Part shown: positions 3,431-60,229 of the stretch, piece by piece
Layout of the letters: each line of letters begins with the position of its first letter
Numbering within the stretch: position 1 is the first letter of the stretch
Assembly: GCA_021018995.1 (NCBI GenBank)
Contig: CM037586.1
Span: forward strand, 148,966,060-149,030,059
DNA length: 64,000 nucleotides
Source: Chloranthus sessilifolius
Taxonomy: Eukaryota; Streptophyta; Magnoliopsida; Chloranthales; Chloranthaceae
Direction of reading: 5' to 3'
Notes under the pieces: generated by a model
The model's input: only the letters and a program-made list of their open reading frames with translations
Database searches by the model: none
What the model was told of the DNA's origin: nothing
Made by a program: the position numbers and the translations under genes

Positions 3431-4160
3431 GGTTTTGAACCGGTTGGAGATTCCAACTCTTCTGAACAAGCTCATCAAAGCAATCAGGGTGAATACTAAA
3501 GGCAACATAATTGATTTTAATGGAGATATCTTCAACTATCTTTCTAAGGATCAACCTTTTGTGAGTAGTCTTGGCTTCAAAAATTATTTGATTACGTTCA
3601 TGCCATAGATGCCATATGATCGCAGAGAATGCTATGAGAAGCATAATTGATCTTCAAGATTTTCCTTTCGACTTTTCAATGACGAAGAGCATCTCATCCT
3701 CGAGGCGATTCTTACCACCGTAAGAAAAATAGAGTCGAGCAAGGATTGATCTCCACACCCATCTAGAAAATGGGCGACAGAAGAAAACATGATCATGGGT
3801 TTCCTAGGCCATCTAACAAAGAACACATCTTGATGGGATTTGAATACCTCTCTTCATAAGATTGTTAATGGTCGGCAATTTGTGGTTTATGGCCAGCCAA
3901 GCACAGAAGGCATGCTTAGTAATCCGGTTCGAATGCCATATCTGGTTCGCCCAAATGATAATTGGGCAATGAGGTCGCATGATATTCCACACAGAGGAAA
4001 TAGAGAATTTTCTATCAGGAGTCAAATCCCAAATTATTTCATCTTCAAAGAGATTTAAGGAGATCTCATGCGCTCTTAGCATTTCCCAAGCCTCATTCAT
4101 ACGAAGGGTACTCGCATCCGGAAGATTCCATTGATCATCTCGAATCATTTCAGCAACCGT
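3411..4160 (-). pseudogene. LINE zf-RVT region, decayed
   Basis: The minus strand from about 4160 reads VTVAEMIRDDQWNLPDAS, then IIWDLTPDRKFSISSVWNIM, then HAFCAWLAINHKLPTINNLM and RCVLC. This is the zinc-binding zf-RVT module that follows reverse transcriptase in plant L1 elements. At least one frameshift lies near 3820; the protein then continues through HVFF and LIAFSAIIWHLWHERNQIIF to the RNase H part. Its N-terminal neighbour, the end of the RT, is now at 15.3 kb on the far side of the inserted transposon. Confidence 0.8.
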
Positions 4161-4179
4161 AACTACGTCAAAATAGACG

Positions 4180-4230
4180 AAATAAGACTACCCAAAGCTG
4201 TCTTATTTTAAAAATAAGACGGCCTAAAAC
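4180..4230. repeat. Left subterminal repeat, outer part
   Basis: The sequence aataagactacccaaagctg and its complement-like tcttattttaaaaataagac form short inverted pairs of the TAAGAC motif. The array resumes at 6665 after the inserted solo LTR. Confidence 0.6.
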
Positions 4231-6664
4231 TGTAAAGACCCGTATTTTGAACCCGAGTTAGACTGACCCTGTGTGTATTCGGCTCGGCAACCGACGTCAC
4301 CATTTGTTTTGGATTTTTATCTAGATGTGATTGTGCGGACAGATTTTAATTTAGAGCCCATTTGGACCCTCGTGCGAAAGTTGTGCACCGACCTCGGTGT
4401 GGCCGCTCAACACCGGACTTGAGTTTTAAAATTAGAAGTGTATAATACATAAGATGTGTGTGTGTGTTTAACTTTGTGAGCAATCCTATTATAAGAAGGA
4501 ATTGCATTCCCGTATTATACTAGGTTTTGTTAAGAGAGGAAGAGACGTGAGTGCCGTGAAGAACCGTAGTCGTTTGATAGTTACCCAACCGTGTGAAACT
4601 CCGTCTTCTCTCTTCTTCAATCATCGTAGGAGATCGGTTTAGAAAATCTCATTCTCTAGAACCCTCTTTGTTGAAAACACTTAAACCTTAGAAAGAACTT
4701 GAATCAACCTTGGATTCGTAGTTGGCTATTGGGAGAGGTTGAGATCATTGGGGGCGTGTTGGAGTTGTCTCTGTGAACTCGTGGGATCGATCGCGGTGCG
4801 AATCGTTGAGGAAACCCGTCGGTTTCGTTCCGAAGCTCCATTCGCGTGACTCATTTCTAATCTAGGAATCCTTAGATTAAAGGTACGTTTTAATTAAACT
4901 TTTTGATTAAATCATTAGATTAGCCATGGGTTTTGCTTTGGAATGTATGGGTTTCGATTCGGGTGAAAACCAACGAAATCGTGTCGCTGTAGCTCGCTCA
5001 AGCGAGCTATTATCATCGCTCGAGCGAGGTATCACCGAACTCCGACATTTCCTTAGTATTTTAGTCATAACTTTTTATCCCGAACTCCAATTGAGACGAT
5101 TCTTTTTGGGTTGGAAAGCTAATAGAAAAATCTACAACTTTCATGTTTTGACCAACTCATAGATCAATCGTCTTGATGGTCAAAAATATATGAGAATGTT
5201 ACATCAAATCGCTCGAGCGAGCTATTATCATCGCTCGAGCGAGGTATCACCGAACTCCGACATTGCCTTAGTGTTTTAGTCATAACTTTTTATTTCGAAC
5301 TCTGATTGAGACGATTCTTTTTGCGTTGAAAAACTAATAGAAAAATCTACAACTTTCATGTTTTGACCAACTCATAGATCAATCATCTTGATAGTCAAAA
5401 ATATATGATAATGTTACATCAAATTTTAGGATTTGCGCAACTTGCCTGTTTTGACTTGTTTTTGAGGAAACACTTAAATAGGTCCATATTATTAGTAATT
5501 AGAGTTAATCTTAACGCATGAACGTATATTGTGATGTAGATTGAGGGCGAGAGGCCATCAATAGGACTTTGCTTGACTTCGCATAACTCGGAGAATCTCA
5601 TCTTTCTTTTATTTTAATTGCATGGATATTTTGAATTAAAATCTTTAAACTTGCATATGCCATTGAAATCACATCCGCAAACCTGAAATTGATATGAATG
5701 ACTAAAATCTAAATCTACGAATCCTCAAACCAATCGCTTAAGCTCAAAATCAAATCAAGAACGAACTATGTATAAGAGACTTTCATCTGATTTGTATTAG
5801 TATCTGCATTTATTTTATGATTGACCTGAACGACTCCTCAAAAATTCCTGAACAATTTCCTGGCACAAGTTTCCCTCATTACGTAGGGGCTTGTTGCATC
5901 CTGAAAAAGGGTTCATGAACGACGATGGTAGGTAGGGGTTCCCATCGGCTATATTCCTGCTCTCGAGATATAGTTTACTCGGGAGTTATTTTAAGTTGAG
6001 GATCAAGTCATGAATTACTGAACTTTGCATATAGAAGTTAGGGAAACTAAGACATCGAAACATTTGCATCTTCTTGAAATTTCACACATTTAGAAATAAA
6101 TCTTACATATGATTTCTGCACCTAAATTCAGTTTATTATCTGCTTATATGTTTGACAAGCTATATTCTGATATTTGTTTTGAAACCATATTAGTTAAAGT
6201 AAAATGCCGTAGATGTCTTTCTTCTACTGAGCTTTGTTGGTTAGCTCACTCCGACTATACGTCACAGGTTCAGGTACTGACGTGGCTATTCAGGGCTGTG
6301 AGACTGATCCTGACTACGTGCCTGAGGAAGAGCTTGAGGTTCCTCCTGAGGAGTTTTTCCCAGTATAGAACTTACTGATTTTCTTATTTGTAGTGAGAGT
6401 TAGACTTGAATTTGTGAGCCCATTTTAGTTGGATATCATAGTTTTATACTTGACGTTGATTTCTGTTATGAGCCATGTTTCGATGATGGTCGGCCATCAT
6501 CGGTGGTTATTTACTTTTAATTGCTTCCGCATTTATTTTAGCTATGAATTTTTATTACGCTTTACTCTGATATGTGCCCTGTTTGTCCGGCTTATCGTTT
6601 ATTCGATAGGTTGGCGAACCGGCCTTTCTTATACCTGAGAGATTGGAAAAGTCGGGTCGTCACA
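4231..6664 (+). mobile_element. Ty3/gypsy solo LTR (2434 bp)
   Basis: It begins TGTAAAGACCCG and ends CGGGTCGTCACA, near-inverse termini typical of large plant gypsy LTRs. AAAAC flanks it on both sides (4226-4230 and 6665-6669), a perfect 5-bp target duplication. No internal region is present, so it is a solo LTR left by LTR recombination. Plus strand is assigned from similarity of its 3' part to the LTR remnant at 25500-25858, which has its primer site on the right. A Tekay/Del-type chromovirus origin is possible but not shown. Confidence 0.88.
4994..5423. repeat. 215-bp tandem duplication inside the solo LTR
   Basis: Two units (4994-5208 and 5209-5423) each start with a TCGCTC(A/G)AGCGA palindrome, have a second one at +22, and continue into a block with catgaaagttgtaga and agctttccaac when read on the minus strand. 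The units differ at a handful of positions. Confidence 0.85.
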
Positions 6665-7000
6665 AAAACCGTCCTCACGCCCGTTCTTTTTTCGAACGTC
6701 TTAAATATATAAGACGGGCATAAACCGTCTTATATTCCATAAATAAGGCAGTAGGAAATGACTGTTTTTGGCAGTCCTAATATAAGACGGTTCGAAGCCG
6801 TCTCATATTAACCACAGAAGACGGTCACCGATCATTTAATAAGACAGCTCATGACCGTCTCTAATAAATCATCCTTTATTTAGAGACAGTCATAAGCTGT
6901 CTTATTTATTATATCGGACTGTCCTTAAGAATCGTCCTATTTTTAAAATTTTGAAAAAAAATAATAATAAATAAGACGGTCGTAAACAGTCATTTTTTAA
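6665..7000. repeat. Left subterminal repeats, inner part
   Basis: Many alternating direct and inverted copies of taagacggN(6-9)ccgtcttat occur, for example ataagacggttcgaagccgt and aagacgggcataaaccgtct. They would fold into short hairpins. This array belongs to the Pack-type transposon and is the resumption of the 4180-4230 array. Confidence 0.72.
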
Positions 7001-8484
7001 AAATCGTAATTAAAAAAAAAATAATAATTCTGGGAAGCACCTATACCCCAGAATACCCTGCTCATCCATCAAAAAATTATAAATGGACATAAAAAATATT
7101 TCATAGTAAAACCACAAACTTACCATGCTTATCCATGAAAATTTTACTATTACAAATTTACCACACACATCCACACACACATAATTCTGGCAAGGGCCTG
7201 TTGCACGATAACAAAGTAACAATAATGATCACATCCCAACAATTCATAAAAAAATCCACTTCAGCTCCTTTCAATCATTATGAACATCACTAAATTAAGC
7301 ATTGTAGCCATCAACCGGCATGAATAAAATAAAATTTGAGAATGCCATAAATTACAAATCGACATGTATTATATCTAAATGGAACACCAAGGCCCTCGAT
7401 TCATTCTCAGAACCAATGTTGTCAAAGCCTTTAGCTCTCTATCTAATTGAATCCCCAAATATAGTAATGAAAGAGAATTGATCACATCCCATCTGTTCTA
7501 AATCAGAAGCCTAGTGCTTAATTATCCCAGATATAAATACTTGAGTGTCCTTATCACACATATTGACTTGGAAATTTTAAAAAAATAATAATAAAACAGA
7601 GGACAAGAATTGAAAAATGACAACTTTTTCTCCTACAATAGCTCCTTTCTTAGTTGGATATATACAACATCAATTCAGATCTTTTGGTTTTCTTTGGAGC
7701 AGCATAGGAACAAAGAAAACCAAAAGATCCAAATAGGGACTAATCAATAGTGTAAGATATGGTCTTTACCTAAAACTAAAAGGACAAGATCGGAATTGTA
7801 GGTCCCTTTAACCAGGCTTGTAATTTGTTGGGAGTCGAAACAATCAACTAATCATCCTTATCGTCATTGTAATTAGTTGGGACCTGCAGCAATCAATCAT
7901 CATGATCATTACATGTTCAAATAAATATTGATTGCTGCTATTTTAATGCAAAAGAGTTTAATGTTTAATTGAATTTAGATATAAATAAGATTAGAGTATT
8001 AGACGTCCATTAAGAGTATTTTAATTATTTTAATTGTAGAATGTTATTTGAGAGGCGGGACATGTCCATTGGAGGTCAACAACTGACTCTTTATAAAAAA
8101 TTAAGGCCCTCATCTAAAAAATGTCCATTTGTCCCAATTAAGGCGATCAAATTTTGATTCCATGTGGCCCACATCTAAAAAATGAATATAATTATAGACA
8201 TACATCAAACATGATTCTCTGATTACTTTTCAAGATGTGTGACACGTGAAATCAAATATAATCGTTTGATGTCACGATACTTGAAAAACGATCTCAATTG
8301 TCTGATTCAAAACACTCAAAAGTTTAAACATGGGTATGACAGGGTACACCGTGGGTACGGTTAAAGTCTTAAGACATTGGTACTATGTCACCTATCTTCA
8401 CATGAATTTTATTTTATTTTTATTACAAAGAAGACCCTGAGGCAACGAGCAACTGCATCAGAACCCAAAGAATCTTGAAAAGCG
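7001..8484. other. Non-coding interior of the Pack-type transposon
   Basis: AT-rich sequence with no coding match. It holds one perfect hairpin (7678-7729), annotated separately. It may include captured intron or 3' flank of the BRF1-like gene, but nothing shows this. Confidence 0.4.
7678..7729. repeat. Perfect 19-bp hairpin
   Basis: GATCTTTTGGTTTTCTTTG at 7678-7696 is exactly complementary to 7711-7729, with a 14-base loop. It is too short for a usual plant miRNA precursor but could be a tiny foldback element. Confidence 0.8.
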
Positions 8485-8815
8485 CCCACGCCAAAAATCA
8501 TGATTACTTTAAATCAGACAATGGAGATCGTGTTTCGCTGCAATCTTCCACAAAAGGGATCTTGAGGCCATAAATGTACCATCAGACGATCAATTTTCGA
8601 TAACACGTGGCATATATCCCAAAAAAGTTGCCCTAAAGTCACATGGCACACATCACACTCAAACGTGAGTTTAGGGCCACTTATTTGGGATTTGTGCCAT
8701 GTGGCAATCAAAACTGGCCATCTGATGGTTCGTTCATGGCGTCAAGATTCCTTCTATGGAAGATTGGAGTGAAACACGATCTCCATCGTCTAATTTAAAG
8801 CAATCAATGATTTTT
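8485..8815. mobile_element. Foldback/MITE, about 310 bp
   Basis: Left arm (about 8490-8660) and right arm (about 8660-8812) are near-complements: tttaaatcagacaatggaga faces the complement of tctccatcgtctaatttaaa. The arms also share cgtgtttc(g/a)ct and tggcaca. A relative of the same family lies at 23903-24262. No target duplication could be fixed. Confidence 0.7.
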
Positions 8816-9071
8816 TTTGTGGGCAGTTTTAAAGGTACCCTTAAATTTATTGCACAAACTTCTTGGGGAGAATGTAGTAAAATATCCCCACTTGACATAT
8901 CTTCCATATTCAGTTTTGGGAAAGGAGTAAAAAATGATTTGAGTTCCATCTTTAGATAAAGCTTCCAATTACTGGATGTATATAAACTAGTCCAATAAAA
9001 TGTCCAAAATAAAAAAGAACGCAAAAGTTCTCTCATAAAAAATGGATAAGCTTTCAAGGGGAAGCCCTTAC

Positions 9072-9336
9072 CGACAAGCAATGTAGAGGCAAGCAGCAGC
9101 TACTTGTACCTGTTCTATGCCCCCTGGTGAAATTTCGCTCGACCGCTATCTTCAATAAATTAAAAACTGTCATATGCTCACTATACACAAACAGCTTGCA
9201 ACAACCAAATTAAAGCTAAACAATGTACAAAAAAAATACACTGTATAAAAGTAGAAGCCTTATTGATTATGGAATCTCCACTGCCGATGCATAAATTGAC
9301 AACCATCTTGCGGATTTCATCTCTCCCTGTGATACA
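9072..9336 (-). pseudogene. BRF1/TFIIB-like exons, captured fragment
   Basis: Two minus-strand exon pieces. The upstream one starts after a CACAG acceptor at 9336 and reads GRDEIRKMVVNLCIGSGDSI, then INKAST. The downstream one (9149-9072) starts after an AG and reads IAVERNFTRGH, then after a small frame loss EQVQVAAACLYIACR, and ends at a GTAAGG donor. This is the first cyclin fold of BRF1, the TFIIB-related subunit of TFIIIB that recruits RNA polymerase III (the family has FTRGRRTEQVQAACLYIACR). The zinc ribbon and second fold are absent. A small deletion between the Gly-His and Glu-Gln breaks the frame. It is a captured genomic piece, since intron boundaries are kept. Confidence 0.72.
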
Positions 9337-10449
9337 AGAAGGGAATGAAATTGGTAGATTGAAAACGTGGAAAGCTAAAATGCAAAACCCAATAATTTCC
9401 CGTAGACCGACATAATGAACTAGAAAATAGCAATGCTCACATCCAAAACAATAGAAGACCTAATATATATATATATATATCTTTCACCATATTTTATATC
9501 TTTTATATCTTTCACCATATTGGGCAAGATTCAGCTAAACCATTTGAACAACACCCTATTTCAGTTCATAAGAAAGGTAAAATGAAAATTTTGGGGTTCA
9601 TTGGCATTACCCGCCAATTCTAAAGAGAGTAAAACACTGAGGTGAATTCCTTTGGTCCTACGGTAAAAAATAGAGAGAACATTAGGGATCGATCATTAGA
9701 TATAAAAGTATAAAAAAAAACATTGAATCACAACCACTAGACATAATAAAATAATCCCACTTGCTTAAGAATAAGAGTTATCTGACACACCATTGGTCAA
9801 ATGGAAATAAAGTATGATTTCCCAGGGAGCTGTAGATGCCCAATATACATTTGACTTTCAAAGGAGGCAGAGCACCACACCACTAGTGGGAGGATTCATG
9901 CGAAGAAATATTCATCAAATGGTTTGACTTTGACCATTGAGAGGGGCAATTACGCCAATAAAAAAGTTTCAAAAATTTTTGGATCCTCGAACTGCAAAGG
10001 AATTGCTAATACATTTTCAAGTCACAACAGAATTAGCCATTCAGAATTCAATCAAAACATTCATGGTCATCAATCTGAAATGTCGAGAGGCAGGCCATTG
10101 TGTAAATGAGCCTCTCAACCCAAAAATCATGCTAATAAGATGATTCCAATCTTCTGATTGTAACGCTTCTCCTACATTAACTGTAGATCTTTGTTCATAC
10201 AAATTTTTTAACTGTCCAATTGCAGACCCTTGATTAGATTAAAATAATCTTCCAATCAATGTAATATCTCAGTTAAGTTCCACTCAGAGAAGGATCAGTC
10301 ACATCTGAACACTTCAGACATGTGGCAATGTATGATATAAGTGAATCGGCATCATGGCTCGGTCAATGACCACGCCAGAGAGAGAGGCGATGATCTGAGT
10401 TTAGTGGAGAACACTCTGAGATTCTGAGGACGTTAATGTGAAGGACTAT
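9337..10449. other. Non-coding interior of the Pack-type transposon
   Basis: No exon could be recognised. A short TA run is at about 9462-9480. Open frames at 9924-10143 on the plus strand match nothing I know. Confidence 0.4.
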
Positions 10450-10673
10450 GGGCATGTTTGAATGCCGGTAATGCAGCAACTCATTTTATCATTTTTTGTG
10501 TAATCGCCATTATGAGGGAGGAGTATGAGCCCATGGGCTGGCAATCATTTTAGCATAAGCGTAGTGCACAAATGGAGGAAACGTGTTATTGACAACGCTA
10601 TCAAACGACCAATCATGGTCAACGGAACTTGAGAAGGGTATAAATGCATCTTTGCCTGCAATCAAACGTGCCT
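10450..10673. mobile_element. Small inverted-repeat MITE, about 224 bp
   Basis: GGGCATGTTTGAATGCCGG at the left faces the complement of tttgcctgcaatcaaacgtg at the right, giving imperfect 20-bp inverted termini. The G(G/C)GCAYGTTTG style is common to Harbinger- and hAT-type plant MITEs. Target duplication is ambiguous (TAT or YTA). Confidence 0.6.
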
Positions 10674-11058
10674 TATATAAAATAATCTGCCCATCAACTT
10701 CCCATGCAAGTATCTCCTAGATCCAATGGCTCTCAAAGCGGGAGAACCGACATAGTGTTCTCTTGTTTCTTCTACCAAAGCATTAATCAAGAAGGAAAAT
10801 TTAATATCATAGTGCGCATTAGGCACAAAAGCTAATTATGCTAAGGTGCCCATTTTCCTTCTAAATTTACAGAGTTAACCAACCTTTGTCCACAGGCACC
10901 TAATCAGGAATAGAGAACTATTTCGGGTCACAGAGTAAGAATTTCAATGTGCTGGTTCTTACCCGAGCCGCCCAACCTGATTAAAAAAAATGGGTCCAGA
11001 AATAACACATACAATTAGAACATAAAAAAACTTTAAAGAATTAAACCAGTATACTGAC

Positions 11059-11166
11059 CTAATGCCATTGCAACAGAATAGGGATCTCTTGTAGCTAAAT
11101 CAGAAAGCTAAATTAGAAATAATTGTCAGAGCATGCCTCACAACAATAGGATCAGCAAATGAAGCC
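11059..11166 (-). pseudogene. TASH3-like exon, captured fragment
   Basis: After a CTGCAG acceptor the minus strand reads ASFADPIVVRHALTIISNLA and then ATRDPYSVAMALG, ending before a GTCAG donor. From memory this resembles a stretch of plant TASH3, the SH3-domain subunit of the TPLATE endocytic complex (FADPVAVRHALEIISELATKDPYSVAMALG). A short internal duplication of TTTAGC introduces a stop and shifts the frame between the two halves. Only this one exon is recognised. Another short spliced-looking piece (GTTGGGCGGCTCG with AG and GTAAGA at its edges, near 10970) may belong to a neighbouring captured exon. The TASH3 name depends on recall and needs a search. Confidence 0.6.
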
Positions 11167-12618
11167 CTGCAGTAATAAAGGAGCTCAACTGCAATCAACA
11201 AATTGAAAATCCAATAATTCAAAATCAATTTCTAATGATGTTACAATCTAAGAAAGGGAGCTAGATAAAAACATGACTGAAACTACATTTACAGCTAAAA
11301 TGTTCAACGACAAGCCAGAAAAGGTATCTGATACCTGTATCTTCAGCAAACGATAACAGGCCTAAAACCTCATAAATCTAAATGCATACACAAGCCAGGT
11401 TTTGCCAGACACCTGCTCAACCATGTACTTTTTTATTTTATTTTTATAGGTAACCATTGCTCGACCACGTAACTTAGACACTGACGCATCTGTCCGGCAA
11501 GGATAAGATGTGTCCAACACAGCAAATATAACTCAATCACAGGTATAGGGTGTCTGGTATGGAATTTTTTGGACACAAGGTGTTATTGTTAGATATACTC
11601 ATAGGTGGCAACATTGCTCAAGATCTTAAAATGTTAGATTCCTTCCATGATGGCTGGTTCAAACTTCCTAAATAATGAACACTTTGTTTCCAATATTAAA
11701 TATAGAGGGGAAATACGTTGGGACAGGACAAACACAAATCTATTGGTTTTAAATGTATTATTTCAGCTAAAATCGGACATATTAAAAGGCATGCACAAAA
11801 CATCAGTAAAGAAGGCCAATACTACAACAGTTAATTGAGACATGCAGAGCATGAAGCTATCAATTTCAAATATGATACTTCAGAATGAACACATGAAAAG
11901 GTACATTCATCATGGTGGTAGAAAGACAAAGTTAAGTAACTTGAGTTGACTAGAACATGACACAGAAATGACCCATATCAACAGATTATTAGATTATTTC
12001 AGTGAACTTTGAAACATATGTACCAAAATACTATATTATTAAAGAAATTAAAATATACCATTGAATGAGGTAAAATTGAGAGCTCCAATCAAAAATAACT
12101 TCTAATAAACATATACGTGTAGAATTACATTCATAGTTAGCAGCCACCCGTCTTTAGATATTAGTCATGAATTTCTTTATCATTTTTCATTTGACTCCCT
12201 CACACTGTCTCGCGACATCTCAATATGTTGGGAATTTTTTCTTACACAAGAAGAGGTTAAGAAATAACTTCCATGCTAGGCAAGACTAAACCTCCAGTAA
12301 TGAACTACCATTTTTTCCTAAACCCCTACTAAAACACTCAAACAAACATTTAAACAAAGACCTTTTGGGATGTAGTAATAACTGAAATCATACCAAACTG
12401 CTAGAATCATACCAATCTGCTAGAATCATATCAAACTGTTGAAAACTCATTCATTACTAAGAATAGATTTGGAGTCTAACAGTGCTCGAGCCGCTGTTTT
12501 TGTGTTACGGCACGGTGAGCAAAAAAATTGGAGAGATCAAAAGCTAACAGCTCGGAAGAGAATATAACAAGACCCGGTCAAATTCAGCAAAAAAAGGCAC
12601 GAGTTTCCTAGCAAAGGT
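11167..12618. other. Non-coding interior of the Pack-type transposon
   Basis: Intron-like AT-rich sequence; I see no exon. The frame at 11647-11838 has no recognisable homology. Confidence 0.4.
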
Positions 12619-12890
12619 GAGTAATTATAGAAGTAAAACACTACTTACATGCAAATTTTTCATCTTCAAACTTGGAACCATAGATACTCCTCCCTCCAGT
12701 TCCCTGTAGCCAGCCAAAAACAGAACATTTTAAAGAAAATTAACCCTCTATGCTGAGTAATTATAGAAGCAAAACACTACTTACATGCAAAATTTCATCT
12801 TCAAACTTGGAACCATAGATACTCCTCCCTCTAGTTCCCTGTAGCCAGCCAAAAACAGAACATTTTAAAGAAAATTAACCCTCTTGTTTG
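12619..12890 (-). pseudogene. Cyclophilin exon, tandemly duplicated, captured fragment
   Basis: Two copies of one exon with its splice edges lie 136 bp apart. The minus-strand reading of the lower copy (12703-12649) is GTGGRSIYGSKFEDEKFA, bounded by CTACAG and GTAAGT. The upper copy (12838-12785) reads GTRGRSIYGSKFEDE, then ILH. This is the GTGGxSIYGxKFxDExF segment of cyclophilin peptidyl-prolyl isomerases. The conserved arginine and hydrophobic-core exons on either side are not seen. The upper copy has lost one motif Gly and one A of the AAAAA run before the end. The duplication includes the neighbouring gagtaattatagaag and about 40 bp of flank. Confidence 0.78.
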
Positions 12891-14105
12891 AGTACAAGAG
12901 GGTTAATTTCAGATGTTTGACCAATATTTCCCAACTCAAAACATGGTGCTGAATATAGCAAATACCTCTAATACATGGGTGAAAAAAGTAGGTATTTGGT
13001 TGGTGTTCCCATGCACGACCTGTGGTGCATAGGTAATCAATTTTCAACATGTAAAACACCATATTCATCATTAAAGCACACATGGTACACTTGAGCATAG
13101 TTTACATGTAGTTGTGCCCAAAATTGCACCCTTGGACAATCTTTGATGATTAAAGCAGGGAGGGTAACAATTCGAACTAAATGAACAAAGTGATCTATTG
13201 AGTGGCTTGAATCTTCCAACAGGCATCATGCATCATGCCTGGGCTGAGTCCTCCCTAGGTAATGGCTTGCCGCTTGGCAACTTGTATTTGTTAAGATATG
13301 GTGCCACATGTACAATACTACTGATCCGTACACCCACAGATGGTGTAAGGGTCTGTCCACCTAATACCAGCTAAATATAAAATCCCAAATTGCAGCATTT
13401 ATGGACCATTGTCCAAATGTCCATTACGTGGCAAAGAACGAACATGGGTGCTAAAACATTTGGACAAGGATGGAAATAACAGTTACTAAAAAACCATAGA
13501 TTTGCATCTCATTTTTCAATAAATAAATTTATGCCATTTATTACTATTGACAAGCTAGGTATTCTTTGAAATTTCGCATATATTATGTAGAAACTCCTTT
13601 AGCTAGTACGCTGCCACACCCACCCAACTTGTTTTCTTTAAAAAGGGGATGGGCCTGCACCTCTTCGTAAATGCCAAGTATTATCTAGTTATAAGGTTGA
13701 CGTAAACACAATCTCATACACTTACTACTCACTTTAGCATTGACAACACTATAAAACATATGACCTACCCAGCAACCATCATAGTAACCAAAAATGCATT
13801 TTTACCAATAACGAAAAAAGACCAAAAGCACATTTTCACAAAGTTAATAGCATAGAAGTAGATTTCATTATTTGCATAGAAAAAACAGGGAGCCTAGTCA
13901 TCAAAATGTCTTACTAGAGACTCAATAATAGTAAATTTTGTATTATATGATTGATGAAATAATCCTAAAATTTAAAACCTCTTATGAATACAGAATTTTG
14001 ACACTCTTTTTCATCTTAATCAGGCAACTCAACTTTCCAATCAGATTCAAGTTACCAATATAATCCAGCTTGTATGTTGAACCAAGTATAACCATTAGTA
14101 TATTG
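12891..14105. other. Non-coding interior of the Pack-type transposon
   Basis: No exon recognised. It contains short frames without homology. Confidence 0.4.
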
Positions 14106-14184
14106 CAAGGATCAAAATTTTGGCCAAAATTATTGGTTTCGGTCCCCACCAAAACGATAATTTGGACCGAAATTTTGATCCTTG
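14106..14184. mobile_element. hAT-like MITE, 79 bp
   Basis: CAAGGATCAAAATTT at the left end is perfectly inverted at the right end (AAATTTTGATCCTTG), and the inverted match continues imperfectly almost to the centre. Flanks are GTATATTG (14098-14105) and GTATGTTG (14185-14192), an 8-bp duplication with one mismatch, as expected for hAT. Its terminus resembles that of the MITE at 24356-24668. Confidence 0.75.
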
Positions 14185-14400
14185 GTATGTTGATAATAAT
14201 AAAACAGCCGGCATGTGATGTAGCAATGGAAGTTAAACTTTCTATTGCAAAAAATCCCCCATCCGGTCCAACTAAAAAAGCCCTAATTCACACTCTTCGA
14301 AAATCAACAAAATCCATTAATTCCTTTAATACATAAATCAGATCAAACAAAAAAAAACAAGTAAAATTGAGAAACCACAGATCCTAACAGTACAAAGCAA

Positions 14401-14448
14401 CCTAACCTTGGTGAAAATTATAAAAACCCTAACCTTGGTGAAAATTAC
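14401..14448 (-). repeat. 28-bp tandem duplication of an exon-intron junction
   Basis: The phrase cctaaccttggtgaaaatta occurs at 14401 and 14429. On the minus strand this repeats the exon end TTTTCACCAAG with its GTTAGG donor, so two identical donor sites lie in series. Confidence 0.85.
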
Positions 14449-14628
14449 GGTTGAGGATTCGTTCTTGCAGATACAACAATGGTGGTTGTTGAGGATAAAT
14501 TGGAGGCGAGAGGCGCAGGTCGAGCACATCTCTCGATGACCACAAGATCCGTATGCCACACACCTTTTTAATATGTGATTTGACTCCGAAAATGCCCAAA
14601 TCACCTTCATTTCACTCGATTCCGCCAT
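14434..14628 (-). pseudogene. ZNF598/HEL2-like RING first exon, captured fragment
   Basis: From ATG at 14628 the minus strand encodes 65 residues and ends in phase at a TTTTCACCAAG/GTTAGG donor. VAYGSCGHREMCSTCASRL (residues 25-43) and HCCICKNESSTVIFTK (50-65) match the RING finger at the start of plant ZNF598/HEL2-type ubiquitin ligases, which mark collided ribosomes (family: VAYGSCGHREVCSTC and CCICKTE). The first Cys pair (normally SCAVCA) is replaced by unrelated residues, so the RING should not fold. The first-exon length and intron phase look like those of the family. No later exon of this gene is recognised downstream; the next pieces come from other genes. It is probably a captured and decayed fragment. 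Confidence 0.75.
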
Positions 14629-14870
14629 TAACGAACTGATCGAGGTCAAAATTGGGTGAAAATTTGGGAAAGAATTTCAAAATTAAGTCTTTGGATTGCA
14701 GAGAAGTGGAGATTTCGAGTAATTTTTTGAGAGATTAGAGAGAGCGAGAGATTTGAACGATTAAAGAGAAAAATAACAATTAGGGTTTGATTTGGGTTTC
14801 GCCCTTCGGGAGTTTAGATAGAACAAGAGAGAGTTGTGCTGGATTGAAGAGGTTGGCTATATATAGGGCA
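14629..14870 (-). promoter_or_regulatory. Captured promoter and 5' UTR of the ZNF598-like exon
   Basis: On the minus strand CTATATATAG (14866-14857) lies 229 bases before the ATG. A CT-rich leader follows with AAACCCTAATTG, a telo-box-like element common near the 5' ends of plant translation-related genes. Directly next to a true first exon, this is a plausible basal promoter. Whether it is active is unknown. Confidence 0.5.
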
Positions 14871-15129
14871 GGTTTAGAGTTGTGGCAGCGATTGAAGAAA
14901 AACTTCCCAGCAGTTCGGTTTTTTTTACACCATCACTGATATACCTGCTCTGTATTGGAGTTCGCTTGCTCCGATTCCACCGATTTGGGACGATATATAT
15001 AGAGAGAGGGGAGGGAGGGAGGGAGATGGTGCTAGGTTATTTTTTGTTGTTGGTAGAGACAAGATGAGAGAGAAGGAGCGCAAGAGAAGAGAGACAGAGG
15101 GCCTCTTGCTTAGAGTGGGTATATCATCG

Positions 15130-15279
15130 AGAAAATAAGACGGCTAATTCAGTCTTACTAACCGTGCTTATTTGTGCCTAACCTATTATTAATTTTAAGA
15201 TGCTTAAAGGCCGCCTCATTAAAAGACTAAAAAATTCAGTCTTATTTTCCATCTTTTATAAACATTTTTTTACCTAGAA
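15130..15279. repeat. Right subterminal repeats of the Pack-type transposon
   Basis: Copies of aataagacggctaattcagt and ttcagtcttattttcc repeat in both directions, matching the left-end motif family. The array ends near tacctagaa, after which LINE sequence resumes. Confidence 0.65.
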
Positions 15280-17038
15280 TTTCATTGATGCCCGATTGCA
15301 ACATTAATCTACTCCCATAAATATGGATAAGAGAGCCTTCCTCTAGCCATGGGTCTTTCCAGAAACTAGTATTCGATCCGATGCCACCAATGATGCAGAT
15401 ATGAGATCTGATCGTATCCCTGACTCGCATGGTTCCTCTTCAAGCCCAAGATGAGCTATTCGGCAAATTGCATGTCCATATGTAAATCAGAATAACATAT
15501 CTATGGGTGCACCACTTCTTCCATAAAGAATTCGACGAAACAAGATTCTAAAAGAGTTTTGAGAGGTCAGCATCATTCCAATCAAGGAGATGTTGAAGCC
15601 CCAATCCCCCTTCTTTAACTGGTTTACATAGCCGTTTCCAACTAATATGATGAGCCGATTGAGCAAGAGTTGGGCCTCTCCAAAGGAATCTAGCAAAGAG
15701 ACCTTCGATCTCCTTTATGACTCTTCGAGGAAGAAAGGAGACCCCAGACCAATAAATCTGGTAGCTGTTGAGGACCGTTTTGATAAGTTCAAGGCGGCCG
15801 GCATAAGACAATAAGCTACTTTTCCATCCTTTCAGGCGATTTCGGATTGTATCGATGAGAGGGGTGCAAAGGCTATACGACATCCGCGTAGAGAAAAGGG
15901 GAACTCCGAGATACTGCAAGGGGAGCGATCCCTCTTTAAACTTCAGATTTGAAAGAACCCTAGCTTTGTCATTACAACTTGAGCTGAATATTAAAGTACT
16001 TTTTGCTTCATTGACTTTGAGACCCGAGAACAAATAAACCTTGTCCAAAATATCCCTTAATCCGGCAGCAGAAGAAGGCTTATCTTGGGAAAAGATAAGA
16101 AGGTCATCGGTAAAGATCAAGTGAGAAACTTTTGGGGCATCTTTGATTTTATGAGGCTTGAACTTTCCGGCAGCGATACTTTCATCAATGGTATAGATGA
16201 TTGCCTCCATAACAATGGTGAATAATAATGGCGAAAGAGGATCCCCATGTCTAAGACCACAATGACTAGGAAAAAACCCATGAGGCGAGCCATTAATCAA
16301 TACAGAAAACTTTGGTGAAGTAATGCACAACTTGATCCAGTTAACCCACATAGGATCAACGCCAAGTTGATGGAGGATGTTAAGAACAAAATCCCATATA
16401 ACTTTGTCATAAGCCTTTTGAAGATCAATCTTCGCATAGAAGGCTTTCGGTCCAGATAGAAGGTGAAAATTTCTGACAAGTTCATGCACCAATAGTATGT
16501 TTTCTATGATTTTTCTGCCTTTAATGAAAGCAAACTAATTCTGACTGATAATGGAAGGCAATACCAAAGCAAGTCTTTTAGACAAAATTTTTGTGATAAC
16601 TTTATATAAAAATTTGCACAAAGAAATCGTCCGAAATTTATTGAGAGTAATAGCTCCATTCTGCTTGGGAATCAATTTTATGAAAGTAGCATTAACTGAA
16701 TCAGGAAGCTTATTCTTGCTGAAAAAAGTACTTATGGTCTTGATGAGGTTGCAGCCAATGATGTCCCAACGGTCTTGAAAGAACTCTGCCGAGAAGCCAT
16801 CAGGTCCAGGAGCCTTATTTCGAGGAGAATTATAAACGATACGCTTAATTTCCTCTGCTGAGACTGCCGCATAGAGAGTCATAGCCTGATAGGGACTAAG
16901 CTTCCTCTTAAAGGGGAGTTGAGGGATGCCTTGACTCCCCGAGGAAAAAAAGATTTGTTTGAAGTATTGGATTGCCTGAATCCCAATCTCTTTCTCATCT
17001 GTAATGCTTACGCCAGAAGGAACCTGCAACTCGAACAT
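15242..17038 (-). pseudogene. LINE reverse transcriptase domain
   Basis: Minus strand. RT begins with NSPRNKAPGPDGFSAEFFQ and IKLIPKQNG, continues with AFYAKIDLQKAYDKVIWDF, GLRHGDPLSPLLFTIVMEA, the catalytic FTDDLLIFSQD (usually FADD) and YLGVPLF, and then the thumb/linker region to GPTLAQSAHHISWKRLC. One TAG replaces Gln in ISQNQFAFIKGRK between the two long frames, and at least one frameshift follows near 15550. The domain is otherwise well kept. It is interrupted after GSRLMLQSGINE by the Pack-type transposon. Confidence 0.9.
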
Positions 17039-17039
17039 A

Positions 17040-18180
17040 CTATATTTTGCAATACAAGAGGCAATAGAGCATAGAAAAATTTGAAGTTTTTATCATCGCT
17101 ATTAAGCCATTGAACACGAGCTTTTTGACGCATAAACTTTTCTTCAATTTGCAGTTCCTTACGCAGCTCAAGAGAGGCTTCCTTCTCATGTGTGGCCAAC
17201 CCCTAGTTCAATTGATCGTTATCAATATCTACCTAAATTTGCTGAAGATTCCTTCTCGCTGCATCAGTAAGGGCATGAACAAAACCAAATGAAGAAGAAT
17301 TCCAGGCTTTAATCCTTACTTTAAGGCTTCGAAGCTTTTGTTGGAGACAAAAAAATGGCTTTTCCTTGATCTGAACATTCCAAACTTCTTGGACAAGCTC
17401 TCTGAATCCACCTTGATTGCTCCAAATACTGAAGTATTTGAAAGGTTTGGGCCCTACGTTCGCTCTATTCTTAATCATGATTAGAAGAGGGGTATGGTCG
17501 GAGATCAACGAAGAGCAATACTCTACATTGATATTCGGGTATAAATTTTGCCAAAGGGAGTTAGTTAGAACTCGATCAATTTTGGAAGATATGCGTCTCG
17601 GGCCGCACAATTTATTGCTCCAGGACTAGCAGAGGCCAGTTTGTCTCATATCTAAAAGCCCACATGAATCAATACAAGAATTGAATTCTTGAAGCGTCGG
17701 ATCATAAGTGGGCAGCCCACCTAATTTTTCAATAGGAAATCGTACAGTGTTGAAATCACCCCCAACAATCCAAGGATTGGAAATAGTAGGTGCAATTTTC
17801 ACTAAAGAGCTCCATAAAGATCTATGGTCGCCCTGAAGATTCGCTCCATATATAGCGGTGAGATTGAATTTGAAATTGTCCTGAATTCTAGTGACTTCGC
17901 AGTGAATGATTTGATTTGATTCCAGTAGCTTGGTGATAGAGAAAGTGCTCGGATCCCACATTATCCAAATGTGACCTAGATGATGGGACTCATAATTATC
18001 TAAGGTGTTCCATTCTCGACAGATGCGTCTCTGAGCTCGGCAAGCTTTTTTCGATCTTAATCTCATTTCACATATACAAAGTATTCCAATGCTATTCTTA
18101 CGGACGAAATTAGCAACCTCTTTTTGTTTATCGGAATGGCCAAGACCTCTGATGCTCCAAAAACAACATTCATTGGGAAA
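17040..18180 (-). pseudogene. LINE APE-type endonuclease domain
   Basis: Minus strand reads FWSIRGLGHSDKQKEVANFV (family NxRGL), LCICEMRLRSKK (family ExKL), then WIVGGDFNTVRF with the metal-binding Asp, then SKIDRVLTN and SSLISDHTPLLI with the conserved SDH. This is the target-nicking endonuclease of L1 elements. Decay is moderate: stops or frame changes occur near 17620 and between 17010 and 17240. The usual NxRG Asn-rich start and the E of ExK are altered. Confidence 0.85.
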
Positions 18181-19790
18181 CTGCAGGGGATGGGATGGGT
18201 TTGCTAGACCTGGGTCTAGTAACTGACGTGTCTGATGGCTGTTTGTGATTATTTTTTGCCACCTTCGGATTATGTTTCTTGTGAAACTTATCATTCTTGA
18301 TAAGTTCACCCAGTAATACCTCCTTCCTCGGAAAAGAAGGGTCAGCAAGTTTAGAGATATTGAAACCTGCCACAACTTGAGTAGATGAGGTTACATCGGT
18401 AATATCCTGTAGCAGTTCAAACGGATTCGAACTTGTGATCGGAGGCGGCAGAATTGGCTATTGAAAGGATGGAGTTTGCTCGGTTGAATGTTGCCTTTTC
18501 GATACTTGCCTCTCAAGAGTCCTATGGCTAATCTTGTTGGCACAATCTGTCGGATTTGTAGAATTAGTTTCCAGATTTGTTAGGATATTCGGCAAGAAAA
18601 AAGAATGGGAGTTATTGCCCGGTTTGGTAGATTCCTTAATAGTAGCTCCATTCTTTCTAATGTTTCCTGATTCTTTGCTAATCTCATTAGCACATTCAAT
18701 GCGAATGGCACTCTCATATGCTAGTTTTGAACTTTCCAGATTGGTAGTTGCACAATCAATGGGAATGGGTAGCCCGATTTCCAAACTTGGAGAGAGGATC
18801 TCCGTTGAATTAGCATGGGATTGACCATGCTTAATTGACTCTCCAGTGGCCTTGGGATTCGTGTCAGCACCAGGAATGGCCAAGGATTCATCTCCTTCAA
18901 TTAGACTGGTGTCCTTCTTTGAGCCTGAAGTCTTTGCAATGGCCAATTCTTTCACACCTTTCTTCTCTATCCAGATATGTCTTTGTTGGGGAATCTTTTT
19001 CTAATTTTTGGAGCATTTCTCTGAGGAATGTTCAAACGAGTGGCATGATTTGAAGAGCACTGGTTTCCATTCATACTCCACCCATTGATAGAAACAGTCG
19101 CCATTTTTCCTACTAAGCGTGATACCGCTCGGGAATTCGAAAGTCGCATCGATTTCAATGCATATCCTTGCGTAGGATAATCGAGACCGGGTGGAGGTCG
19201 GCCCATCGGCGTGGATAGGAATGTTGAGACTACTAGCAATTCTACCCAAAATATTTGGAGACCAAAACTGGATGGGCACCTTTGGAAGCCGAATCCAAAT
19301 AGGAACCGTTTTGATCATCTCACGCTCTGGTTTCAGGTCTGGAGTCCATCGGCGAAGAATGAGGGGTCATCCCACAATGGTCCATACGTCAGCATCAAGG
19401 ATTCTTTCCAAATCCTCTTCGTTTGTGAACTTGAAAAGAAAAAATCCATCATCGAACGAAATCAGACCGACGTTACCTTTGATTTTCCATAATCGAGAAA
19501 TAGCAGCCTTAAGTCCTAGGTAGTACGGTTTCAATCCGAGTACATATCCCAATAATGTATTGTTCCACCGTCATGACTCCGATTGGATGTCTTCCTCGGG
19601 GCATAGAACCATCCAATCTTTAGAACTAGGAAAAAACTCAAGCTTAGAGTAATTGTTGGTAATTTTGCTATTACTAAACAAATCCGCCCACTTTCCTTTG
19701 GCATCGGGAGGATTCTCCGTGGAGGAACAAACCTCCGAAAGCCAGGGGAGAAGAAGAAGCACACAGAAAAAGACCTCACACAAAAATCGA
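18181..19790 (-). pseudogene. LINE ORF1 (DUF4283, degraded zinc knuckle, linker)
   Basis: Minus strand. GYVLGLKPYYLGLKAAISRL and DGFFLFKFTNEEDLERILDA form DUF4283, the RNA-binding N-terminal domain of plant LINE ORF1. VPIWIRLPKVPIQFWS follows. VEYEWKPVLFKSCHSFEHSS then EKC is a zinc knuckle that has lost its first Cys. A Ser/Thr-rich linker runs to the endonuclease. The upstream CT-rich and GA-rich stretch to 19852 is probably the 5' UTR. Frameshifts separate the start, DUF4283 and knuckle parts. Confidence 0.82.
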
Positions 19791-33540: not shown

Positions 33541-34862
33541 CTATTTGGACCATGTTGGAGGAATCTTACTTGTAGCCAAATAATTCATTATATTTGCATA
33601 CAATGGTACTGTACCTTGGATGGCAAAAAGTTGTTTATCTAGAAAGGTATCATGCAGGGATTCTCTATTGATGGATTCTGACAATTTTATTCTAGACAGA
33701 TAATTAGCCACCACGTTTTTAACACCCTTCTTATCCTTGATTTCAAAGTTAAATTTCTGCAAAAGAAGGATCAACCTTATTAGTCTCGGCTTGACATCCT
33801 TTTTAGATAGTAGGTATTTTAGTGAAAAGTGATTAGAGAAGATGACGATCTTTGATCCCAATAGGTATGGTCAGAATTTATCTAAAGCAAAGACAGCAGC
33901 AAGAAGCTCCTTCTCAATAGTGGTGTAATTAACTTGAGCTTCAATCAAGGTACGACTCGCATAATAAATTATGTGAGGGATCTTATCTTTCCGCTGTCCT
34001 AAGACGACACCTATTGCGTAATCAGAAGCATCGCACATTACTTCAAAAGGTAAGGAGTAGTCAGGTGGTCAAATAATTGGTACAGATGAAAGAAGCGCTT
34101 TAAGCTTGTTAAATGCGTCAAGATAGACATCGTCAAAGTTAAAGGATACATCATTTGCTAACAAATGGCATAAAGGTCTTGAGATTTTAGATAAATCTTT
34201 AATAAAGCGTCAACAGAAGCCAACATGGCCCAGAAAAGATCGAATCTACCATACCGAAGTTGGTTGCGGCAAGTTTGCTATTATATTAATTTTAGCCTTG
34301 TCAACCTCTATTCCTCTTTTGAAGATAATAAGCCCTAAGACTATGCCTTCCTGAACCATAAAATGGCTCTTTTCCCAACTTAGTACCAAATTAGTCTCTT
34401 CACATCTTTCTAGAACGAGGGCGAGAAGATCAAGACAAGAGTCAAAGGTTCGGCCAAATATCGAAAAATCATCCATGAATACTTTCAGAAACTTATCTAT
34501 CATATTAGAAAAGATAGCCATTATGTATCTTTCGAACGTTGCAGGTGCATTGCATAAGCCAAAGGGCATACGGCAATATGCAAATGTTCCAAAGGGACAA
34601 GTAAAGGTAGTATTTTCCTGATCTTTCAGGTATACTAGAACTTGATTATACCTGAATATCCGTCTAGAAAGCAAAAATACTCATGACCGGCAAATTTCTC
34701 TAAAATTTGGTCAATAAATGACAGTGGCAAGTGATCATTGCGAGCCATTAAGTTGAGTTTCCGGTAATCAATGCATACGCGCCACCCTGTGGTTTCACTT
34801 AATGGCACCAACTCACCGGTTGAATTTTCTTTGACTGTAATCCCATATTTTTTTGGGACTAC
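33541..34862 (-). other. Old Athila-type element, RT (C-terminal part) and RNase H
   Basis: Minus strand shows [30 protein letters not shown] (catalytic DD), then the RNase H region with MGSKIVIFSNHFSLKYLLSK and KGVKNVVANYLSRI. The N-terminal RT part is at about 49590-49740, separated by the inserted younger element. Broken. Confidence 0.83.
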
Positions 34863-36678
34863 TGATGAGTACTGAAAAATGAGGATATTTCACCCCTAAA
34901 TACCTATATTTAGCTATCCGATGAAGGCTATCTGATAAGATTGATTAGATTTGAAGTGTTTCAGGTAAATACAAGCCAAGTATAGAAAACAGTACAAGAA
35001 TTCTGAATATAATGCCAAAACACTGCAACTTCGGGTAATCAAGAACTTGGTGCGACTTGCAGCTAAATTTGGACCTTCAAGACGGCCGAATTACAAAATT
35101 GTCAAAACATGAAAGTTGTAGATCTTTTCGTCAGCTTTCCAACGGCGTAAGAATCGTCTCAATCCGAGTTCGGGACAGAAAGTTATGGCCGACATACTGA
35201 AGCAGTGTCTGAACCACAAGAAGTGCTGAATTTCACAGATTTCTGGGGTCGATGCATCGACCCTACAGATCGATTAATCGAGCCAGAGTTTCAGTCTGAC
35301 ACGAATCTGACACTGGAAACATGATTTTTTGGATTTCTTGTCGGCTCGATGCATCGACAGCCCTGGGTCGATTAATCGACCCTAAAAAGTCGAATTGGGA
35401 GACCTTTGCGCGACGGATTCTATTTAAAGACTCAAACACTTCGGAAAGAAGGGGGAGATCTTTTTCAGCATTAGAATTACGTAGGAATTAAATTTAGGAG
35501 AGAGTTTTAGTTTTTAGTGTTCTTAGTTTTTAGCCATTATTTTTCATAGTTAGACATAGAAAATAGGAAGTTTTATTATTTCTTTTTGAGAGCTTTGTTC
35601 TTTAATTTTTCAGTATTCAGTTCATAAATTTTGTTGAAAGTTTATTTCTGCATTTATTTCGTTTCTGAAGACTATCATCCGTGTGGATCAACGTAATTTA
35701 TTTTGAAGTTTGAGGTAATTTTAATTAATGTTATTTTCCCGTTTTTATTTATTTATGTCAATTCCTTACAATATGTGTGGCTAAATTTATAGAGATGGGG
35801 ATCTAATGATTCCCATCCGAGGGATGTACTTTTAATAATATAAATTTAGGATTAAAATATGAGATTTTATTTTTATGGTTGTTGTGCTATCATGAATGGA
35901 AGAAATCCCCGCCACTAACCGGGATCGCGTGTGCCGAGTCATGCCCGGGATCTCAGATCTGTGACGGTAATTTTATCCAATCATTGTTATGGTCTTTTTG
36001 CTTTCATCGTGTGGATCTAATTACGATTATATTCTGCGATCGAGTGTGCCGAGCCATGCCCTGGATCTTGGTTCTGTAATGGTAATTTTATCTTAAATAA
36101 TCCCTAATCTGAATAAAGTGTGCCGAGCCATGCCCTTGATTTCAGATTTGTAAGTGGTATTCTTGTTGGAATTTTCACCCACCTTGGGGATGATTTTTAT
36201 TTGAACCTGAGATCATGTGTGTCTAGCCGTACCCTTGATCCCAGATCTAGATATATGAAAATCATCTAAGTCCTGATTGCAGGGATGCAACGTGGAACCT
36301 ATTAGGGTGTTGACCATTGATCTTCCATAAAAGATGTTTGTTACCAATGAAATATCTCATAATTTAATCCTTAGATTTATATTATAGGAAGAAAGGACCA
36401 AAGATGGGAGGATTTAGTATCTTCATCTTTATCATCATCTTCACTTTTATTTTTGAATTATCAATTGAATTTTAGTTTGTAGTCATTAATCACCATCAAC
36501 CACTTAAATCATAAAACTGGTAGAATACTGTTAGATCTTAATAGATTTCTAGAATTGCTTGTCTCTTTTAGATGTTTCAACATTAATCCTCGTGGGAACG
36601 ATCTCGTACTCCGCACCCACTATATACAAACCGATTCGTGCACTTGCGAGTAAAACATTACATTAAAATATCACACCA
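34863..36678 (+). repeat. Young Athila-type element, 5' LTR (1816 bp)
   Basis: Starts TGATGAGTACTGAAAAATG and ends TATCACACCA. It contains four exact TCGA palindromes (35249, 35270, 35346, 35368) just after the AGCTTTCCAACGGCG / AAGTTATGG block, and four degenerate units of gtgtgccgagccatgccc at 35921-36260. Confidence 0.93.
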
Positions 36679-36684
36679 AATTTT

Positions 36685-36702
36685 TGGCGCCGCTGTCGGG
36701 GA
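36685..36702 (+). other. Primer-binding site (tRNA-Asp type)
   Basis: TGGCGCCGCTGTCGGGGA begins a few bases after the 5' LTR and is complementary in the Athila manner to the 3' end of tRNA-Asp. Confidence 0.85.
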
Positions 36703-36831
36703 TTAAATTTAGAAAATCTGAATTTTTGGTAGACAGTAAATTTTAGGAATTTTCGAGGATTAAAATAGTATTTCTGCTTAATTAAAAAAAATAAATAAAT
36801 AAAATAAAATAAAATAAAAAATTTTTTGAGG

Positions 36832-36905
36832 TCGATGCATCGACCCACACTGTCGATGCATCGAGGTTGCCTCGATTGATCGAGTGTTACTCGATTAATC
36901 GATTT
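36832..36905. repeat. Leader cluster of TCGA palindromes
   Basis: Two TCGATGCATCGA copies, one TCGATTGATCGA variant and one TCGATTAATCGA follow an A/T-rich run in the leader. Confidence 0.85.
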
Positions 36906-36969
36906 TTATAAATTTTATTTTTGTTTTGAGGTTTTTCTGCCGGAAACCTCCCCTCTGTGCATCCTTTGT

Positions 36970-42623: not shown

Positions 42624-42710
42624 CGCTCATTGGGAGGCAACCCAATTGTGTATTTTCCGTTTGGTTGTGTTTTGTTTTGTTTAAAAAAAAAAAAAAAAAA
42701 ATTTGTTTTG

Positions 42711-43330
42711 AGGTCGATGAATCGACCACTCTGTCGATTAATCGACCCCCAAAGGGTCGATGCATCGACCTTTTAGGGTTCGATTAATCGACCCTCTGTT
42801 TAAAAAAAAAAAAAAAATTTTTGAGAATCGATGCATCGACCCCTTATGGTCGATGCATCGACCCCTTATGGTCGATGCATCGACCATTTGTGCTCGATTA
42901 ATCGACCACTTTTTGGTCGATTAATCGGGAGTATTTAATGCAGTGTCCTTTTTCAAGGCGACTGCATTTATGTGGATTTTGACTTTTTCTTTACTCGATT
43001 AATCGACTACTTGAGTCGATGCATCGACTGTTCATTTTGAAACTTGTGCCGTATTAAAAATCTGTCAGTTTTGTTTTTATTTGGTGTCGATTAATCGACT
43101 CTTTATGGATCGATTAATCGACTTTTATTTTGGGACGTGCGTTTTTGGTTTTTCTTTGCCTCGTTTTCTGTCGATTAATCGATGAAGTGCGTCGATTAAT
43201 CGACTTTTCCACTTCTGTACGTTGCGTCTTTTCACTTAAAGACGTTGCGTGTTTCCATGCATCGGGACTTCTGACGCGCCTCTTTTCATTAGAGTCGATT
43301 AATCGACACTTTTGGTCGATTAATCGATTA
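42711..43330. repeat. Palindrome cluster 1 (TCGATGCATCGA / TCGATTAATCGA)
   Basis: By eye there are 5 exact TCGATGCATCGA, 10 exact TCGATTAATCGA and two one-base variants in about 620 bp, after an A-run. Many are extended to 16-bp palindromes GGTCGATGCATCGACC or GGTCGATTAATCGACC. It sits directly 3' of pol. Confidence 0.93.
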
Positions 43331-43449
43331 TTTCGATTGTGTCCGTCCCGAGAGGAGCCATTGCGCCTATTTAAATGGAGCAGTCTCACTACGTTTTTCA
43401 TTGAGTTTGTATCCTGTTTTTTCTGACTGCCTCTGACATTCCGACAGTG

Positions 43450-60149: not shown

Positions 60150-60229
60150 AATTGGTATCAGAGAATCAGTTTAGTTTTAGGGTTTTAGTGCTCATATACG
60201 TTTTAGGTTTTTATTTTATTTTTTTAATT

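Follow-up and report, generated by a model that had tools for sequence, protein, structure and literature searches.

A Pack-CACTA element of Chloranthus sessilifolius whose four-gene cargo probably arose by fusion of two carriers

We analysed a window of 64,000 nucleotides from Chloranthus sessilifolius (contig CM037586.1, positions 148,966,060 to 149,030,059 of the forward strand), a stretch of retrotransposon-rich plant nuclear DNA; the genome searched was the window's own assembly of 2.17 Gb. At 4161-15279 lies an insert that carries pieces of four host genes: a BRF/TFIIB-type gene, a gene with a TASH3-like exon, a cyclophilin gene and a ZNF598/HEL2-type RING gene (Table 1). An original prediction had read this insert as a single gene-capturing element with terminal inverted repeats (TIRs) that had itself collected the four pieces. 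We find that it is one old non-autonomous CACTA (En/Spm) element inside a long interspersed nuclear element (LINE), and suggest, with a probability of roughly 0.8, that its four-gene form is a Pack-CACTA produced by fusion of two half-loaded carriers and then amplified.

The LINE lies on the minus strand and is split by the insert, with a zf-RVT match on one side (Pfam, 3816-4160, 1.4e-17) and reverse transcriptase (15551-16534, 8.5e-26) and endonuclease (17629-18390, 2.6e-6) matches on the other; an Rfam scan of 3600-19500 gave no match. Deleting 4161-15277 or 4161-15280 joins the LINE halves in one frame, GSRLMLQSGINE-(I)-TVAEMIRDDQWNLP, in agreement with the predicted insertion in a LINE reading frame. 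Short direct and inverted subterminal repeats are present at both ends of the element. Exact copies of their motif TAAGACGG occur six times in the 64 kb, counting either strand, and all six fall within three end stretches totalling 571 bp, as predicted (positional test for clustering, p 5e-13; mean 1.07 and maximum 4 in 60 first-order Markov sequences of window length). None lies in the interior at 7011-15124, and with one mismatch allowed there was no clear window-wide enrichment (40 observed against 31.7 expected, 10 of 100 shuffles reaching 40). A Pfam scan of 139 interior open reading frames (ORFs) of at least 32 aa (6660-15140) matched 21 families at E up to 1, with only two RING families below 0.005 and no transposase family, so that a transposase would be needed in trans.

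Taken alone, the window copy has neither a demonstrable TIR (AACTACGTC and ACCTAGAA) nor a demonstrable target-site duplication (TSD; flanks CGT and TTT), and its ends were defined through copies elsewhere in the genome. A query with 14400-15280 gave 55 matches, and the left subterminal stretch scored at at least 40 places, the window's own included (40 out of 523 first-look candidates, a lower bound); the family is large. We label copies by contig as C12, C9, C3b, C1a, C8, C1b, C4, C2, eC6 (C6:19.95 Mb) and eC1c (C1:62.73 Mb), and distinguish an A-type (the window, C12, C9, C3b, C1a and C8) from a B-type (C1b, C4 and, in part, C2) and a C-type (eC6 and eC1c). All five copies with both ends, C12, C9, C3b, C1a and C1b (6,213, 7,612, 5,756, 8,681 and 6,305 bp), have inverted termini CACTA...TAGTG. 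Identical 3-bp TSDs flank four of them (TCT at C12, TTT at C9, ATG at C3b, CTT at C1b), and at C1a two of the three bases match (TTC/GTC); copy C8 has a left end reading TACTA and has lost its right end. Less its nested long terminal repeat (LTR) and one TSD copy, the window element measures 8,680 bp, next to the 8,681 bp of C1a. Because the ends of the copies coincide with 4161 and 15279, the predicted outer coordinates are correct, and the copies do not place the ends between the gene pieces. The cargo has moved with the element, as seen in the six A-type copies and the perfect TSDs at C12, C9 and C3b. We conclude that this is a Pack-CACTA: a non-autonomous element with host gene pieces whose sources lie elsewhere in the genome, present at several insertion sites. 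Catoni et al. 2019 is reportedly the founding Pack-CACTA paper.

The copies also dispose of two other readings. Helitrons have no TSD and no TIR, run 5'-TC...CTRR-3' and have a hairpin near the 3' end. Gene capture by a Helitron, with orientation kept, would account for all pieces lying on one strand, and the right end in the window happens to read CTAG; the inverted CACTA termini and 3-bp TSDs of the copies, together with subterminal repeats at both ends, nonetheless place the element in the CACTA superfamily and exclude a Helitron. The preference of the prediction for a TIR element was thus sound, with the superfamily now amended to CACTA, and the single orientation it had pointed out holds for all four pieces, on the minus strand, but may be due to chance (p = 0.125). 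Every piece is short and degenerate, as it would be if remnants of intact local genes, or unrelated insertions, lay side by side; that reading is refuted by the recurrence of the pieces in the same order on other contigs, in C1a, with both ends, and in C8, with its left end, each of which holds all four segments.

We located the four parent genes on different contigs (RING on C7, cyclophilin on C15, TASH3-like on C2 and BRF on C1), which supports the host origin of the pieces, none of which is part of an intact local gene. With exon edges placed by eye, the predicted AG and GT edges are found in the window at both cyclophilin exon copies, the TASH3-like exon and BRF exon b; the RING piece has GT only, and one edge of BRF exon a is doubtful. 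The predicted BRF1/TFIIB piece at 9072-9336 lies where it was placed: its two exons joined by X match the TFIIB repeat (Pfam 1.3e-6), and exon b has yeast Brf1 as its best match (8e-4). The source locus at C1:196.34 Mb is 93.5% identical to the window over 1,021 bp for 8464-9477 and 93% for 8326-8471, and shares the fold-back repeat at 8474-8834 inside the segment. Both exons are open there; exon b alone matches the TFIIB repeat (7.5e-9), exon a alone matched no family, and the joined exons match yeast Brf1 best (1.4e-6; TFIIB 1.7e-5). A genome-wide TFIIB search gives this locus 33.8 bits; the one TAA counted is the codon that closes the match, where the splice donor lies. Another match on that strand, 19.5 kb further downstream, scores 24.9 bits (E 0.03), just above the cut-off of 23.6. 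The adjoining 9480-10440 gave ten rows of genome matches: the window, C9, C8, C1a, eC6, eC1c (two rows), C1:56.30 Mb and two short weak ones. C1:56.30 Mb may be a fifth donor or one more carrier.

The TASH3-like segment (10999-12322) is 91.4% identical to C2:149.37 Mb, a multi-exon gene with conserved-looking exons, judged by eye, beyond the captured stretch. The predicted exon at 11059-11166 is borne out, being open at C2:149.37 Mb with AG/GT edges and open at the C11 paralogue (VSFADPVAVRHALAIISDLATRDPYSVAMAL), where the acceptor is altered. Its peptide had no match in PDB, Pfam or a large protein set (two candidates, none scored), and the name TASH3, which we take from the original prediction, could not be confirmed. 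A third place with a TASH3-like stretch, C4:106.89 Mb, starts at the left border of the captured segment and is not counted as a source gene. Since the BRF and TASH3-like borders are identical in the A- and C-type carriers in which they survive, each segment was probably captured once.

The cyclophilin piece, predicted at 12649-12838, was likewise located as described (PDB match 1.7e-5). The matching locus at C15:16.879 Mb is flanked by collinear Pro_isomerase exons (model 27-61 before; 83-117 and 108-158 after), has the exon open with AG/GT edges, and over 551 bp shows 91.7-92.9% identity to seven copies; the alignment to the window copy falls into two parts, at 90% and 83%. The window RING piece matches RING_ZNF598 below the Pfam cut-off (2e-4, 22 bits against 27) and the generic RING family zf-C3HC4_3 at cut-off (3.8e-6). 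Genome-wide, RING_ZNF598 gave seven matches, of which only C7:3.009 Mb, without a stop, lies above the Pfam cut-off; it reads MDDSCAVCAEPLEWVAYGSCGHREVCSTC, and its likeness to the window ends at 14562. Of the predicted ZNF598/HEL2 piece at 14434-14628, then, only 14434-14562 derives from HEL2; the remainder, which holds the ATG, belongs to a dispersed repeat, a caution for annotation, as the supposed exon is half HEL2 and half repeat. Of the 55 matches, 40 were sorted at this join: 20 span it, 19 have their start there or close by, and a single one, that of the C7 gene, stops at it. The join also occurs at C9:102.36 Mb, with no TIR or exact TAAGACGG within 4.5 kb; the RING half and the repeat were already united on entering the element, or else C9:102.36 Mb is a remnant. 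The RING half may have been taken second-hand, already joined to the dispersed repeat. In all six A copies, the window's among them, the chimeric stretch 14434-14628 (minus strand) is open over its 65 codons; in the B-type C1b and C4 it is frameshifted, which may be chance given the divergence. TATA-like stretches, chosen by eye, lie at 14855-14868 and 14991-15004; a captured HEL2 promoter was considered and dropped because HEL2 homology ends at 14562.

CACTA gene capture is well known; less clear is how many unrelated genes are brought together in a single element. The A copies C1a and C8 hold all four segments, and C9 lacks 7614-8692. The B- and C-types have the same ends as the A-type. The C-type holds the BRF and TASH3-like segments and is window-like up to 12540, beyond which eC6 and eC1c continue in common sequence (90% over 924 bp). 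The B-type consists of foreign DNA until 12522-12535 and from there is window-like across the cyclophilin and RING segments as far as its right end. All six A copies examined change from C to B sequence at one point, with C-type sequence until GATCAA and B-type sequence from GATCAA (eC6 TTGGAGAGATCAATGC; C1b TTGGAGGTCTCGATCAAAAGC; all six A copies TTGGAGAGATCAAAAGC). Right-end identity is 79-85% for A-B, 71-77% for A-C and 91-98% for A-A (five A, three B and two C sequences), and cargo identity is 91-93% for A-B in the cyclophilin part, 94-95% for A-C in the TASH3-like part and 93-94% for A-C in the BRF part. Because B and C each hold half of the cargo and all A copies switch at one point, a fusion is most likely, and a single C and B fusion followed by A amplification is the simplest history, its direction being set by parsimony. 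The element is one, as predicted, but it probably did not collect the four genes itself; it is most likely a fusion of two two-gene carriers.

We regard as improbable the alternative that a Pack-CACTA gathered the four pieces one by one and that B and C are later derivatives with cargo lost or exchanged. Cargo loss does occur: C12 lacks 7869-10502 (the whole BRF segment), C3b lacks 9123-11598 (and with it both BRF exon a and the exon of TASH3-like type), and the C-type eC1c lacks 10648-11221, and so the TASH3-like exon itself. B and C, however, do not simply lack a half: each has other sequence where it would stand, both switching at the same point, and the right end of A is closer to B than to C. 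An ancestral A-type would require separate replacements in B and C that meet at one point, which is unlikely.

Several observations nevertheless weigh against our account of a CACTA element fused from two carriers. No TSD can be recovered for the window copy (CGT against TTT), and with canonical ends and a 3-bp TSD the LINE would be one base out of frame. All 551 fetched bases at C15 match the elements, so that no border is reached and an element inserted in the cyclophilin gene is conceivable. The microhomology reads GACCAA in eC1c. The left end is uninformative on parentage at 6665-7188 (A-B 86.7-88.5%, A-C 85.2-87.4%) and tends in the reverse direction at 7210-7677 (A-B 88.6-90.4%, A-C 89.7-91.6%), and the comparison took in two C-type and three B-type sequences.

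In the mechanism that we propose for this fusion, the transposase of a related autonomous element would recognise, in trans, the TIRs and the TAAGACGG subterminal repeats, as knowledge of the superfamily suggests, and would cut and paste the element, leaving the 3-bp TSDs seen in the copies. The cargo consists of segments of host genes copied as DNA, with their introns, as shown for BRF and TASH3-like by borders common with the source loci and for cyclophilin and RING by similarity. A C-type element would have joined a B-type element at the 6-bp microhomology, retaining C-type cargo and the B-type right part, and the resulting A-type, whose junction is common to all six A copies, would then have multiplied. 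We thus think it probable that CACTA lineages loaded separately, one with BRF and TASH3-like and the other with cyclophilin and RING, recombined at the microhomology, and that cargo is assorted by joining carriers besides fresh capture. Given a fusion, the chances seem to us about even that template switching or end joining between two copies, rather than re-mobilisation of neighbouring insertions, produced it. The absence of exact TAAGACGG from 7011-15124 means that no inner end remnant is seen, the join has its 6-bp microhomology, and microhomology-guided switching is described for animal Pack-TIRs in the accessible part of one report (PMC8277862); a deletion within a tandem pair could equally remove inner ends, and the data do not separate the routes.

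The window copy would have entered the LINE and then have received an LTR insertion and decayed. No LTR occupies the corresponding site in C12, C9, C3b, C1a, C8, C1b or eC6; in C4 an LTR of the same family occupies the expected left-end position, and the stretch fetched for copy C2 stops short of its left end. In copy C2 (C2:134.92 Mb, B-type), two same-orientation LTRs of this family flank 4.9 kb in the RING region, near window position 14454-14462, which supports 4231-6664 as an LTR. The window copy is probably dead: both its ends are mutated, its subterminal region holds the LTR, its cyclophilin exon has a 135-bp duplication that is missing from the other A copies, and neither the BRF nor the TASH3-like frame is intact.

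Elements of this kind are already known. According to the accessible parts of its description, Tgm-Express1, a CACTA element of the soybean wp allele, holds pieces of five host genes in 5.7 kb and sits in an intron, its captured exons having splice sites that still work and being spliced into host transcripts (PMC1947982). The window element is likewise a CACTA with intron-exon pieces of several unrelated host genes and mostly kept exon edges; it differs in its genes and in its place in a LINE. The same parts yielded no merger of two carriers. The Tpn1 family of Ipomoea nil, as far as its available text goes, is similar in being multi-copy CACTA with the interior replaced by captured host regions, TIRs and subterminal repeats kept, and 3-bp TSDs, and differs in its cargo and in having identified autonomous members (PMC5105172). 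For Pack-TYPE elements, fusion of neighbouring insertions is the proposed and favoured capture route, and fused AB elements are shown in a rice Pack-Mariner cluster, in the portion of that report available (PMC8903248); here, by contrast, the two probable carriers held different gene pieces, and a microhomology marks their join, with no inner end motif left. The literature open to us, mostly without subscription papers and in part as extracts, yielded neither a case of this four-gene set nor a pair of gene-carrying CACTA lineages whose merger had been mapped, and the terminus and motif strings led to no paper on the family among the matches listed. The point of interest is the traceable merger: a single genome contains relatives with half the load, source loci whose exons are open, and the point of the join, so that the steps can be ordered and dated.

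Table 1. Features of the element and its LINE flanks (window positions).
Feature	Position	Strand	Remarks
3' part of the LINE (zf-RVT), flanking the insertion on one side	3600..4160	-	3600 is not a mapped LINE end
Whole non-autonomous CACTA element	4161..15279		ends defined via copies C12, C9, C3b, C1a, C1b
Left TIR and start of left subterminal repeats	4161..4230	+	AACTACGTC in window; CACTACGTC and close variants in copies
Nested solo LTR	4231..6664		TG...CA; 5-bp TSD AAAAC at 4226-4230 and 6665-6669
Remainder of left subterminal repeat region	6670..7010	+	TAAGACGG in both orientations
Segment from BRF/TFIIB-type gene	8326..9477	-	source C1:196.34 Mb, about 93%
BRF exon b	9072..9149	-	frameshifted in window, open at C1:196.34 Mb
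BRF exon a	9242..9326	-	3' edge uncertain
Stretch common to window and C1:56.30 Mb	9480..10440		91%; no exon recognised
Segment from gene with TASH3-like exon	10999..12322	-	source C2:149.37 Mb; paralogue on contig C11
TASH3-like exon	11059..11166	-	13 bases longer than at C2 and C11, breaking the window frame
Probable fusion junction	12522..12541		C-type left, B-type right, shared GATCAA
Segment matching cyclophilin gene	12536..13176	-	C15:16.879 Mb; limits reflect the stretch retrieved and not the extent of homology
Cyclophilin exon copy 1	12649..12703	-	of 135-bp tandem duplication
Cyclophilin exon copy 2	12785..12838	-	of 135-bp tandem duplication
Segment from ZNF598/HEL2-type RING gene	14301..14562	-	C7:3.009 Mb; 14562 a sharp border, 14301 the alignment limit
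Dispersed repeat fused to RING piece at 14562	14563..14718		source of the ATG in the predicted exon
Right subterminal repeats and right TIR	15134..15279	+	ACCTAGAA in window; GACGTAGTG in copies
LINE endonuclease and reverse transcriptase part, other flank	15280..18390	-	Pfam domains

Two further observations concern the element family. The stretch 12400-12540 is a dispersed repeat that ends at the proposed fusion point (19 of 38 genome matches are confined to query positions 1-141). Copy C1b (C1:45.53 Mb) has an exon-like open stretch of 38 aa on the minus strand, KVAIFYEGLMQSFGDDFTGEDLRKALMCLAKALTKEQL, with no Pfam match, and B-type elements may carry in it another captured gene piece.

Elsewhere in the window, 34852-49587 is an LTR retrotransposon with an LTR pair 97.6% alike and with gag, protease, reverse transcriptase/RNase H and integrase; three ORFs that follow pol (294, 168 and 140 aa) have no Pfam match, and TCGATGCATCGACC-type tandem repeats lie within it at 42.7-45.1 kb. 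On the plus strand, the ORF at 54778-55599 encodes a Senescence_reg domain (Pfam 1.1e-43) and seems to be an intact host gene. At 59053-63616 a direct repeat pair, 93% alike, surrounds a CCHC zinc knuckle ORF and is probably a non-autonomous LTR element, and 268-991 holds two tandem units of about 360 bp that are 92% alike.

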